Assembly: GCA_023262255.1 (NCBI GenBank)
Contig: JALRBT010000003.1
Coordinates: 1 to 52,716, forward strand
Reading direction: 5' to 3'
Length of the DNA: 52,716 nucleotides
DNA from: Ilumatobacteraceae bacterium
GTDB taxonomy: Bacteria > Actinomycetota > Acidimicrobiia > Acidimicrobiales > Ilumatobacteraceae
This document shows positions 2,638 to 36,106 of this stretch, piece by piece. The position numbers and the translations under genes were made by a program. The notes beneath the pieces are model-generated. The model did not search any database. It was given only the letters and a program-made list of their open reading frames with translations, and was not told the origin of the DNA. How positions within the stretch are numbered: position 1 is the first letter of the stretch; each line of letters begins with the position of its first letter.

Positions 2638-4185
2638 ATGCTTCCAAGCAGGGACGCCATGTGCATCATCTGTCAGTCGGCCACGGCGGCTGCGGCAATG
2701 ATTACGGCGTTCCTGCCGGTGGCACCAGACGTGGCAGGTCCGAACGATGGACTGGCCAGCCCGCCCGTGGTCATGACCGAGGCGGCGGAGTCACCACCGA
2801 CAATCGCTGGCAAACGTTGCGTGCGACCTCGGGTGGTGCGTACCGTCGCGGGAGTGCGGTATCGCTGCACCCCGATCGGTCGGTCATTGAAGTGGCATCG
2901 AGTAGGCACGGCCTCAGGTGCGAACTCCTCGATGCCGTCGAGTACCACGTCGGCGCCAACCACCACATCGACAACGGTGGAACCGTATCGGCAACCATCG
3001 GTGACGAGTTCATCCGCCGATCAGTGTCGGCTGCGAGACCAGAGCACTCAGCGACGAACGTTCGGACACCTTCTGGCCGGCTTTCCGGTGATCGAAACGA
3101 ACTTTGCCTCGCGCGGAGTGTTCACGTTCGCTCTCGTACCGATCGACTTCTCGGATCTTCCCGGTGATTCGGGGGTCATCGCAAGGGTGGATGATCAGAT
3201 GCAACTCACGACCGACTGGTACGACATGGTGTCCGAAGGTCGTGTGAAGATCGAGTGGCGGGTACATCGGAACTGGGTCCGAGTTCCGGGTGACTCGGGT
3301 AGCTACGCCATGAATCGATCGCGAAGCGACGACAACAAGCTTGCAAAAGCGGCGTTTGCGGCGGCGGATCCAAGCGTTGACTTCGGCGGAGTGCGCGCAG
3401 TTGCCTTCGTGCTGCCCGCCGGCCAGACCTTCATGGCCGAAGGAGTACAGGGGTTCCTGCACAGTGAGTTCGGTTCCGAGGGGGGATTCGCGACTGCGGA
3501 GGGACGCGTTTACAACTACATGATCGCCGGCGCATATTTCGACCGGCAATACAAGAATTACTGGTCGTACTGGGCGCACGAGACGGGACACATGTTCCCT
3601 CTTCCTGATTTGTACGATCAGAACACCCAGTGGTGGATCGGCAAGCAGACCGAGATCCCGGGTGGACCGTTCTCGGGTTTCGACATGATGGCGGCACAGG
3701 ACGGACCCAGCCGAACGTTGAGTAGTTGGCTGCGCTTCGTCATGGGTTGGCTCGCCGATTCGCAGGTGTTTTGCAAACCGGTTACGGAGTTGACCGAAGC
3801 CCAGGTGACGCTCGTTCCGATCGATGACAGAAAGTCCGGAGTGAAGACGGTGCTGGTGCCGCTTTCGAACTCGAAATTGTTGGTCGTGGAGTCCAGACGT
3901 GCAAATACCAAGTTCGACTGTGAGGGTACGGGTACCTCGACGCCGACCTGGCGCGCCCGGAACGGCGTCATCGTGTACACCGCGGATCTCTTGCTCGGGC
4001 ACGGCGAAGGCTTCCAGGCGCTCGTGGCGCCGGCGAGCCGTGGATTGCAGAGCCTGGCAACGTGCTCATCGCCACGGCAATACGACGCCATCCTCGAGAT
4101 TGGCGATGTAGTGACGAGCAACGGCGTACGAGTTCGAGTGCTCAGCAGCGGTCTCTACGACACCGTCGAGATAACACGACCGTGA
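2638..4185 (+). CDS. Secreted M6-like zinc metallopeptidase
   Basis: A 515-residue protein. The zinc motif HETGH (His314, Glu315, His318) followed by MFPLPDLY, and a downstream GFDMMAAQDG Met-turn-like segment and LRFVMGWL, place it in the M6 (immune inhibitor A-like) gluzincin group. Before the catalytic part come a weakly hydrophobic N-terminus (about 9-30), a short module with two cysteines (Cys61 and Cys77, ending in SLKW) and a Thr/Ser-rich linker (about 97-117). The Cys pair with KRC...RYRC...LKW looks like a small domain seen in exported actinobacterial proteins. Start is uncertain: ATG codons at 2638, 2659 and 2698 are all possible. Its stop overlaps the next gene's GTG (GTGA). Likely exported; substrate unknown. 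Confidence 0.82.
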   Translation: MLPSRDAMCIICQSATAAAAMITAFLPVAPDVAGPNDGLASPPVVMTEAAESPPTIAGKRCVRPRVVRTVAGVRYRCTPIGRSLKWHRVGTASGANSSMPSSTTSAPTTTSTTVEPYRQPSVTSSSADQCRLRDQSTQRRTFGHLLAGFPVIETNFASRGVFTFALVPIDFSDLPGDSGVIARVDDQMQLTTDWYDMVSEGRVKIEWRVHRNWVRVPGDSGSYAMNRSRSDDNKLAKAAFAAADPSVDFGGVRAVAFVLPAGQTFMAEGVQGFLHSEFGSEGGFATAEGRVYNYMIAGAYFDRQYKNYWSYWAHETGHMFPLPDLYDQNTQWWIGKQTEIPGGPFSGFDMMAAQDGPSRTLSSWLRFVMGWLADSQVFCKPVTELTEAQVTLVPIDDRKSGVKTVLVPLSNSKLLVVESRRANTKFDCEGTGTSTPTWRARNGVIVYTADLLLGHGEGFQALVAPASRGLQSLATCSSPRQYDAILEIGDVVTSNGVRVRVLSSGLYDTVEITRP

Positions 4186-7619: not shown

Positions 7620-9400
<1,781 letters not shown>

Positions 9401-9432
9401 CGTCGAGGCCTCGTGGTGCGTCGAGACGCGAT

Positions 9433-10344: not shown

Positions 10345-11132
10345 CTAACGGGTGACCACCGCCTGCAGTTCACGCACCCTGAGCTGATGGGATGTCCCCA
10401 AGCGCAGGTCGGGCAAATGACCCGACCCGCCGAAGTTGGTGCGCCACGTTACCGACCACACCACATCAATTCGGGCTCGAAACGTGCCGCCGTCCCGTAC
10501 GGAAGAGGGAACAGGATACTCGTACATGCAATCGGTGGTGATGAATGATGAGAGCAATGGCGTCCACGGCACGCCTGGGCCGTCGCACTCGACGACGCTG
10601 TCCGAACCGTCACCCGGGTGGAATTCCAGTGCCTTCGGGGTGGCGGTGGTGGTCATCGTGAGAATGCCGCGGGGGGTGGGCACTTGCGCCGTGACCGACA
10701 CGGGAATCCACAGCGCAGGGTGCACCCAGAACCAGGTGGGGGTATTGACGACCCCTCGTAGTGGTGGTGGGGAGAACTGTTGATCCAGCAACGGCACTTG
10801 CTCTCGTACCACGTCTCGGGATGATTCGGCGATCGTCTCGGTGCTCACCTCGGGCACCCATACGAGTATCGAGTCGTCCTCTCGCGTGCACGGGTGCAGT
10901 ACCCACTGGGTGCCGTTCCAGTCGCGGGTCGTGGCACCGGTCCGTCCACCGAGCCCGTAGGTGGGCAAAGGCAGCTCCAGTCGCACGTGCTGAGCGAATG
11001 TCGTGAGTCGTACGATACGCCGGCAAAGATGTGGTCGCCGTCGACACCTGCGTCGCTTGCGTGGGTGATCGGGACTCGAGACGTCGGTAGCAGGGTGAGA
11101 AACACCACTCCGAATGTGATCGAGCGTTTCAT
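10345..11132 (-). pseudogene. Secreted hypothetical protein gene with an apparent 1-nt frameshift
   Basis: The ATG at 11132 overlaps the upstream lipoprotein stop (ATGA) and opens a good signal peptide (MKRSITFGVVFLTLLPTSRV...THA). That frame carries a plausible mature start ending in STCDW, then turns into unlikely sequence and stops near 10845. The protein-like continuation ELPLPTYGLGG...LVWVPEV...PTWFWVHPALW...FHPGDGSD to the stop at 10345 is one frame away. Adding one G after the TGG codon (plus-strand CC at 10977-10978) joins STCDW to ELPLPTY. The later part resembles actinobacterial exported proteins with a conserved C-terminal beta-rich region of unknown role. Could be a real mutation or a sequencing/assembly error in a short G run. 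Confidence 0.7.
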
Positions 11133-11776
11133 ACGCCACAGAACCTTTCTGCCGGCGACCGACGCTCGACCCGCCGCGACCACAGTCGCCAGGCGTCGTC
11201 GTTGCGTGACAGTACCCACTCGACGCGTCGCGTCCAGACCGTCGCATCGAGGATGATGTCGCCGAGTTCCGTTTGAGCCATGCTCGAATCGAAGAAGATG
11301 CGTATGTCGTACTCGCACGTCGTCAAACGAACGCGGTCGTCACTCGAGGCGGAGATCGACTCGATTCGCCATTCGAGGCGACCTTCGTTCGGTTTGGTGC
11401 GCAGTTGCTCGGCTGAGTAGTAGGCGAGAGCGTCGGCAAGCCGCACGTGCTCGGGGGAATCGGGCGCGGTCGACACCGAAACGTCGCAATCCGAGGGGCG
11501 ATGGAAACACGACACCCAGTCGGTGATGAGTGATGCAAATCGTTGCTCGATTGCGGTCGTATCGAGCGACCCATCGGCTGCGGATTGATCGGGCGACGTC
11601 GTGGTCGGCTCGGCCGTTACTGCACCTTCCAATGCGAGAAGGGAATCACCGCCGAGGGCGGCGGTGTCAGCGGTGGGTTCGCCCACGTCGAAATTGAGTT
11701 GCGTCGGTGTGGCACAACCGCCGAGCATCGACGCAAGGACGATCGATGCGAAGTCCAGTCGGATACGACGTGACAT
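11129..11776 (-). CDS. Putative lipoprotein
   Basis: A 215-residue protein starting MSRRIRLDFASIVLASMLGGC, a lipoprotein signal with lipobox LGGC and lipidated Cys21, then a Thr/Ser/Ala-rich linker to about residue 65 and a folded domain with ITDWVSCFHRPSDC and WTRRVEWVLSRNDDAWRLW. The C-terminal half resembles small NTF2-like or DUF4440-like secreted domains in general shape only; no firm family. AAGGAG 7 nt before the ATG supports the start. Its stop overlaps the start of the frameshifted gene downstream by 4 bp, so the two were a translationally coupled pair. Confidence 0.78.
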   Translation of the reverse strand: MSRRIRLDFASIVLASMLGGCATPTQLNFDVGEPTADTAALGGDSLLALEGAVTAEPTTTSPDQSAADGSLDTTAIEQRFASLITDWVSCFHRPSDCDVSVSTAPDSPEHVRLADALAYYSAEQLRTKPNEGRLEWRIESISASSDDRVRLTTCEYDIRIFFDSSMAQTELGDIILDATVWTRRVEWVLSRNDDAWRLWSRRVERRSPAERFCGV

Positions 11777-14048: not shown

Positions 14049-14060
14049 CAGTCGCCGACT

Positions 14061-14116
14061 GCGTACGACGCTCACGACGCACGATGCCCGCCGCGTACGA
14101 CGCTCACGACGCACGA
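14061..14116. repeat. Perfect 24-bp direct repeat, 32-bp period
   Basis: The 24-nt sequence starting GCGTACGACGCTCACGACGC occurs at 14061-14084 and again at 14093-14116, separated by 8 nt, in the 100-bp gap between the helD-like stop and the convergent lipoprotein gene. No T-run is present, so it is not an obvious terminator. Confidence 0.85.
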
Positions 14117-14148
14117 CCCACGCCGCGCGGATCAGCCAGGAGGCGTGC

Positions 14149-27471: not shown

Positions 27472-27530
27472 CGCGGCAACCTAGTGGGTGAAGATGAACG
27501 ACTTCCGTCGTCCTCGTGGCACACTGAGAC

Positions 27531-28917: not shown

Positions 28918-30060
28918 ATGAGCACCCTCACTCCTGAATCCGTCATCGACGCACTGCGTCCGGTCGAAGATCCGGAGTTGCACCGCTCGATCGTGGATCT
29001 CAACATGGTTCGTGACGTGGTCATCAACGACGGCGTGGTGTCGCTCACCGTCACGTTGACCATCGCGGGTTGTCCGTTACGCAACGAGATACAAAGCCGC
29101 GTCAACGGTGCCATTCGACCGATGTCGGGCGTACGTGACGTGCAGTTGAACTTTGGGGTGATGACCGACGAGGAACGCGCCGCACTGCGGGAAAAGTTGC
29201 ACGGCTCGCCCGGTGCCACCGCGGGTAGTGCTCCCGCACAGGGTCACGCGCAGGGTCGCACCATCTCGTTCGCGCAACCCGGTTCCAAGACGCGACCGTT
29301 GCTCATCTCTTCCGGCAAGGGAGGTGTGGGTAAGAGCAGCGTCACCACCAACCTGGCCGTGGCACTCGCCGCGGCGGGTCACACGGTGGGAGTCGTCGAC
29401 GCGGACATCTACGGCTATTCCATTCCGCGCATGCTCGGTGCCGATCGCGACCCGGTGGTCATCGACGAGATGCTGTTGCCGCCGGAGAGTTACGGCGTTC
29501 GCTGCATCTCGATCGGCTACTTCGTTCCCGAGGGTCAAGCGGTGGTGTGGCGTGGTCCGATGTTGCACAAGGCACTGGAGCAGTTCCTCACCGACGTGTA
29601 CTGGGACGAGCCGGAGTTCCTGCTCATCGACATGCCCCCGGGTACCGGCGACATCGCGTTGAGCCTGAGTCAGTACCTGCCACGTGCGGAGGTGTACGTG
29701 GTGACCACTCCACAGGAGGCGGCGCAGAAGGTCGCGCGACTATCCGCGGCGATGGCCAAGAAGGTCAACATGTCGGTACGCGGCGTCATCGAGAACATGT
29801 CGTGGTTCACCGGCGACGACGGCAAGCGGTACGAACTCTTCGGTCAGGGAGGCGGAAAGATGTTGGCCGACGAACTCGGCGTGCCGCTGCTGGCACAGAT
29901 TCCGTTGGTGAACCAGCTCCGCGAGGGCGGCGACGACGGCAAGCCGATTGCAGCCATCGCACCAGGAAGTGAAGTGGGCTCGATATTCGCGGATCTGGCC
30001 AAGAAAATCGTCGAGATGCGACCGAAAAAGGTCTTCAGTCAGGCCCTGAAGGTCAACTGA
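28918..30060 (+). CDS. mrp: Mrp/ApbC-type Fe-S cluster carrier P-loop ATPase
   Basis: A 380-residue protein: an N-terminal MIP18/DUF59 domain (about residues 5-85), a linker, then a Mrp/NBP35 ATPase with the deviant Walker A SSGKGGVGKSSVTTNLAVALA near residue 130, VVDADIYGYSIPRMLG, and LIDMPPGTGDIALS. Family members bind and transfer Fe-S clusters. The C-terminal CxxC that holds the bridging cluster in most homologues is replaced by ENMSWFTGDDGKRY, so either the cluster is bound otherwise or the protein lost it. It starts 22 bp from the SufR-like start and is followed 18 bp later by a DUF3107 gene. Confidence 0.93.
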   Translation: MSTLTPESVIDALRPVEDPELHRSIVDLNMVRDVVINDGVVSLTVTLTIAGCPLRNEIQSRVNGAIRPMSGVRDVQLNFGVMTDEERAALREKLHGSPGATAGSAPAQGHAQGRTISFAQPGSKTRPLLISSGKGGVGKSSVTTNLAVALAAAGHTVGVVDADIYGYSIPRMLGADRDPVVIDEMLLPPESYGVRCISIGYFVPEGQAVVWRGPMLHKALEQFLTDVYWDEPEFLLIDMPPGTGDIALSLSQYLPRAEVYVVTTPQEAAQKVARLSAAMAKKVNMSVRGVIENMSWFTGDDGKRYELFGQGGGKMLADELGVPLLAQIPLVNQLREGGDDGKPIAAIAPGSEVGSIFADLAKKIVEMRPKKVFSQALKVN

Positions 30061-35045: not shown

Positions 35046-35969
35046 CTAGTACTCCACCAACATCGGCTTGATGAGTCGTAACGCCTCGGCATGGTGTCGA
35101 ACGGTCAGGGTGGTGGTTTCGTCGATGTAATCACCATCGAGTTGATATCCGAACGGCGCCGGAAAATCAAAGACCACCCGTTCCACGTCCTCGATCACCT
35201 CGATTCCACGGCGAGCCGCGATGCCGCCATTTCGTAGGGCTCCCCACATCGTGGACAGCATCAGCGGAGTGGTGAGTCGCCGAAACGTGACCGCAACCAG
35301 TCGCTTCTCGAGCGAGGCGGCGCGCGAGAGTTCGATCGCACGCTTCCCTACGTAGGTGTAGGGGTTGGTGTTGAGCACGATGGCGAAGAAGCCGTTCGGA
35401 ATCTTTCGGCCATCGATCTCCACCGTGAAGTGCGGAAACCTCCGGTCGTAGTCGACGAACCAGGTCTTCAACGCCGCGAAGGCGAACAACGGTTGTCCAA
35501 CGAGACGCTTGAAACTGAATGTGCGTTCCACACGTCGAACGACCTCGGCGTCGTAGCCGACACCGGCATGGAAGGTGAAGTACCTGCCATTGGCTTCACC
35601 CAGTCCAATCGGTGCAACGAGGCCACCATCGAGTCCGGCGGTAAGTTGCGTCACCGCCGTCAGCGGGTCGTTCGCCATGCCGAGGGATCGCGCGAACACG
35701 TTGGTGGATCCTCCGGGTAGCACTCCGAGCGCAGTCGAACTCCCCGAGAGTCCCGTGGCCACCTCGTTGAGGGTGCCGTCACCCCCGAAGGCCACCACCG
35801 CGTCGAGACCCCGCGTGACGGCGTCGGCCGCGAAGCGCGTGGCATGGCCACGCTCACTGGTTTCGACCACCTGCACGTCGTGATGACGGGCCAGATACTG
35901 GTGGACCTGAACGGTGTTGCGTGGGGTCACCGACGTGGCAAAGGAGTTCACCACCAGCAGGATTCGCAC
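35046..35969 (-). CDS. Diacylglycerol/lipid kinase family protein
   Basis: A 307-residue YegS/DgkB-like lipid kinase. The nucleotide site VAFGGDGTLNEVATGL (about residues 62-77), GVLPGGSTNVFARSLG and a C-terminal beta domain with FGYQLDGDYIDETTTLTV are characteristic. The GTG at 35969 gives RILLVVNSFATSVTPRN, the standard N-terminal strand; a longer reading adds Cys-rich non-family residues. Substrate may be diacylglycerol, a ceramide-like lipid or an isoprenoid; in mycobacteria relatives act in phosphatidylinositol-mannoside turnover. Divergent from etfB. Confidence 0.92.
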   Translation of the reverse strand: MRILLVVNSFATSVTPRNTVQVHQYLARHHDVQVVETSERGHATRFAADAVTRGLDAVVAFGGDGTLNEVATGLSGSSTALGVLPGGSTNVFARSLGMANDPLTAVTQLTAGLDGGLVAPIGLGEANGRYFTFHAGVGYDAEVVRRVERTFSFKRLVGQPLFAFAALKTWFVDYDRRFPHFTVEIDGRKIPNGFFAIVLNTNPYTYVGKRAIELSRAASLEKRLVAVTFRRLTTPLMLSTMWGALRNGGIAARRGIEVIEDVERVVFDFPAPFGYQLDGDYIDETTTLTVRHHAEALRLIKPMLVEY

Positions 35970-36106
35970 GCAAAAACACGGTATCTGGGTCCGGATTGCT
36001 CCTCGACACACGAGGGAACTCGCCGGTGCGACGAGGACGCAGGTCACACCACCCGTCATGACGACTTCCGCGACCGATTCTGCGTTCAGGTGACCGAGCG
36101 GTAACA

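Follow-up and report, generated by a model that had tools for sequence, protein, structure and literature searches.

A one-base deletion private to one genome probably breaks a conserved, translationally coupled secreted-protein gene in Ilumatobacteraceae

The window, a stretch of 52,716 nucleotides that forms the whole of contig 146 in an assembly of 1.65 Mb (212 contigs, 82% complete), carries on its minus strand a secreted-protein gene at 11132-10345 whose coding sequence is divided between two reading frames. The 5′ part (10977-11132) opens with an ATG at 11132-11130 and comprises 52 codons, from the signal peptide to the residues STCDW, the last of which is encoded by a TGG codon at 10979-10977. 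Translation of this frame gave MKRSITFGVVFLTLLPTSRVPITHASDAGVDGDHIFAGVSYDSRHSLSTCDW, followed by out-of-sense residues up to a stop codon at 10847-10845. As written, the gene therefore encodes a product of 95 residues. The 3′ part (10345-10974), reading LPLPTYGLGG...QAVVTR and a stop codon, lies one frame over. The offset at the junction is a single base, such that the AGC and CTG codons would share base 10974. These translations bear out the sequence-only reading of the locus, which placed the signal peptide and STCDW in one frame and the remainder, to the stop, in another.

Immediately upstream, on the same strand, lies a predicted lipoprotein gene (MSRRIRL...LGGCATP...FCGV) at 11129-11776, with its start picked by eye as the ATG before the lipobox. 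Its stop codon overlaps the ATG of the broken gene as ATGA, so that the coupled start claimed previously is real, and the same overlap occurs in the sister genome G003 (JAFMFM010000002.1, isolate CPBay_Sum15L08_26), the nearest relative. The order of the two genes, lipoprotein followed by secreted protein, was also kept in G003 and in other relatives.

The 3′ part was used as the query in a search of 41 genomes, namely that of the window and 40 relatives. Homologues were found in 27 genomes, including that of the window, and no match contained an internal stop. The window's own genome, which is 82% complete in this assembly, yielded a single match. In G003 the gene is present as a full frame of 262 codons. 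Alignment of the two genes (97% identical at the DNA level; intact copy L002/L038) gave 762 identities in 789 columns and one gap only, located at the junction. With a single gap against so similar an intact copy, and at that very position, the frame break is not a chance feature of the sequence. The corresponding gaps in alignments with G005 (JAFMJP010000006.1) and G006 fell at the same place. The break was absent from all 26 other genomes carrying the gene; since every homologue is intact, that of G003 included, it represents a one-base deletion seen only in the window's genome. Comparison with intact-frame homologues had been put forward as a test that could refute the proposed frameshift, and the proposal survived it. 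No copy of the junction was found in viral contigs, and literature searches returned nothing specific.

The existence of a mechanical open reading frame of 300 amino acids in the 3′ frame (10345-11247, ATG start) might be taken to indicate two separate overlapping genes instead of one broken gene. The N-terminal part of this open reading frame, however, covers the upstream lipoprotein gene and the conserved signal peptide in another frame, and in the relatives a single frame with a coupled start spans both parts. We regard two genes as extremely unlikely. On the sequence comparisons, the 5′ and 3′ frames are the parts of a single broken gene.

Alignments at the DNA and protein levels place the missing base at 10974-10976, with an uncertainty of a few bases. 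The sequence-only reading had suggested that restoring one G directly after the TGG codon would join the frames. One missing base is indeed the only gap relative to the intact G003 gene, but it lies about three bases further downstream than proposed. The repair as suggested would also place Glu after the conserved Trp, a residue that none of the same-genus relatives has there. In all ten same-genus copies the frame runs uninterrupted across the junction, as CDWSLP, CEWVLP, CEWVRP or CRWAVP, the Trp being followed by Ser, Val or Ala, then Leu, Arg or Val, and then Pro.

Both parts of the gene are conserved at the protein level, as they would be if a programmed ribosomal frameshift joined the two frames. 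Every relative nevertheless encodes the protein in a single frame, and the C-GAC-TGG-AGC sequence at the junction does not form a slippery heptamer. Such frameshifting is highly improbable in this genome. As a conserved mechanism it is refuted, since neither the break nor a slip site is conserved and the relatives are single-frame. No new mechanism is at work: the locus reflects either a recent mutation of an ordinary kind or an error of assembly. As judged from the aligned sequences, it is very probably an otherwise conserved and translationally coupled secreted-protein gene broken by a one-base deletion found in the window's genome only.

To place the deletion in time, substitutions in the 3′ part were compared with those in intact copies. 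Between the window and G003, 17 synonymous and 5 nonsynonymous differences were counted, giving a dN/dS of 0.10, equal to the ratio between intact relatives. When changes were polarised with G005, the window branch carried 7 synonymous and 2 nonsynonymous changes, with one further nonsynonymous change ambiguous. Under neutral drift about three quarters of the changes would be expected to be nonsynonymous; the observed count was below this (binomial P about 0.002-0.005, on only about ten changes). The substitution pattern thus indicates that the 3′ frame has been under purifying selection for nearly all the time since the window and G003 split. It follows that the deletion either arose very recently or is a consensus error limited to this site.

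The first of these, under which the population would carry a genuine null allele of recent origin or a young pseudogene, we consider evenly balanced between true and false. If the allele is real, the deletion would lead to the premature stop, and the cell would secrete a stub of 95 residues from which the C-terminal domain is lost. Two of the changes on the window branch hit residues conserved among near relatives, K to N (...VVKTPTWFWV) and R to H (...GRLPDLR), which speaks for a real allele. A clear sign of relaxed selection is lacking, however: nonsynonymous changes in the broken gene (2-3, against 7 synonymous) were not significantly above those in neighbouring genes outside 35046-35980 (Fisher P 0.2-0.6). 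A second, intact copy could also lie on a contig missing from the 82% complete assembly.

The other explanation is that one base was dropped while metagenome reads were being assembled, in which case the gene would be intact in the organism. That the downstream frame is still evolving as coding sequence is consistent with this. So too are the fragmentation and incompleteness of the genome, the fact that the near relatives in public records are themselves metagenome assemblies, and the occurrence of the gap and two substitutions within a few bases, a cluster that mixed strains might have produced. Against this explanation, no long homopolymer is present at the site.

The window aligned to contig 38 of G003 over nearly its full length, at about 95% identity, and further contigs of the window's genome were sampled to give 147 kb aligned to G003 in total. 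Open frames of at least 80 codons, about 138 kb of aligned coding DNA, were scanned for frame breaks. The deletion at 10974-10976 was the sole single-base break in mid-gene. Other indels of the window relative to G003 were multiples of three, mutually compensating, or located in spacers or near gene starts. The remaining flagged indels (36051, 27507-27512, L061, L111 and L054) fell in spacers, or else near or ahead of probable start codons, as judged from positions and translations only. A generally error-prone assembly is rejected, as no such pattern was present in the 147 kb. The low error rate in aligned coding DNA favours a real event somewhat, although one isolated error could still account for the break. 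Overall, we would put an assembly or consensus error at slightly short of an even chance. The reading offered at the outset, a pseudogene, polymorphism or sequencing error, is supported as a set of options, with the gene intact in every relative that carries it.

Larger differences between the two genomes were also observed. Short repeat-like insertions relative to G003 (36, 16 and 7 bases) occur at window positions 14050-14130 and 9397-9432, in spacers or gene ends. A segment of about 1.5 kb at 2671-4166 is cleanly absent from G003, where the flanking sequences meet directly at 29951/29952. Almost the whole of a 515-codon open reading frame (2638-4185) falls within this segment; its product is a secreted protein that contains an HETGH motif and matches peptidase M6 weakly, below the cutoff.

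The intact protein, in which a WFW/GDG/C.YTY pattern is conserved, is a member of an Acidimicrobiales family that has no name. No Pfam family matched either this protein or its upstream partner, and among NCBIfam models there was no named component, only a chance-level match for the partner. Structure prediction from four sequences gave a mean pLDDT of 43, too poor for a fold search. In other Acidimicrobiales families, the homologue is directly followed by a gene for a SAF-domain protein weakly similar to RcpC/CpaB or FlgA-chaperone proteins; such genes lie next to the homologues at L016, L017 and L018. G026, G027, G029, G030, G031 and G037 carry a T2SSE (TadA-type) ATPase gene at a distance of a few kb from the homologue, on its contig and strand. 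In the window's genus, T2SSE matches were on other contigs, the gene pair standing apart from any Tad-type locus, and no T2SSE match was found in the window's genome. In families of the order other than the window's (L016, L017, L018, L019 and others), the two-gene unit as a whole has SAF-domain and T2SSE ATPase genes as neighbours, whereas it stands alone in the window's genus. Judged from this neighbourhood, the most likely role of the normal protein is that of an exported accessory factor with a historical link to a pilus or secretion locus of the Tad type.

It could be supposed that the deletion is a real loss-of-function allele segregating in a natural population, and that these streamlined genomes are coming to dispense with a secreted protein that is conserved throughout the order and was formerly linked to a Tad-type locus. 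We consider this improbable. Unless it proves to be both real and common in the population, there is little to learn from the frameshift as such. For annotation, the two open reading frames should be treated as one gene, of which the intact form is present in relatives. The family, for which neither Pfam nor NCBIfam has a model, merits a name, since distant members occur within Tad-type pilus loci.

Among known systems, the accessory genes of Tad/Flp pili (CpaB/RcpC, TadA) offer a likeness in gene order, the distant homologues lying just upstream of SAF-domain genes and within about 2-3 kb of a co-oriented T2SSE ATPase gene. They differ in that the pair in the window's genus stands outside such a locus; nor does the protein match a named family. 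An indel error in a metagenome-assembled genome would resemble the present case in its isolated one-base gap in the consensus of a fragmented assembly, but here there is no homopolymer, and the aligned coding DNA holds no other mid-gene frame break. With an ordinary recent frameshift, as in a young pseudogene or segregating null allele, the locus shares the one-base deletion, the premature stop, the preserved downstream frame and the intact orthologues.
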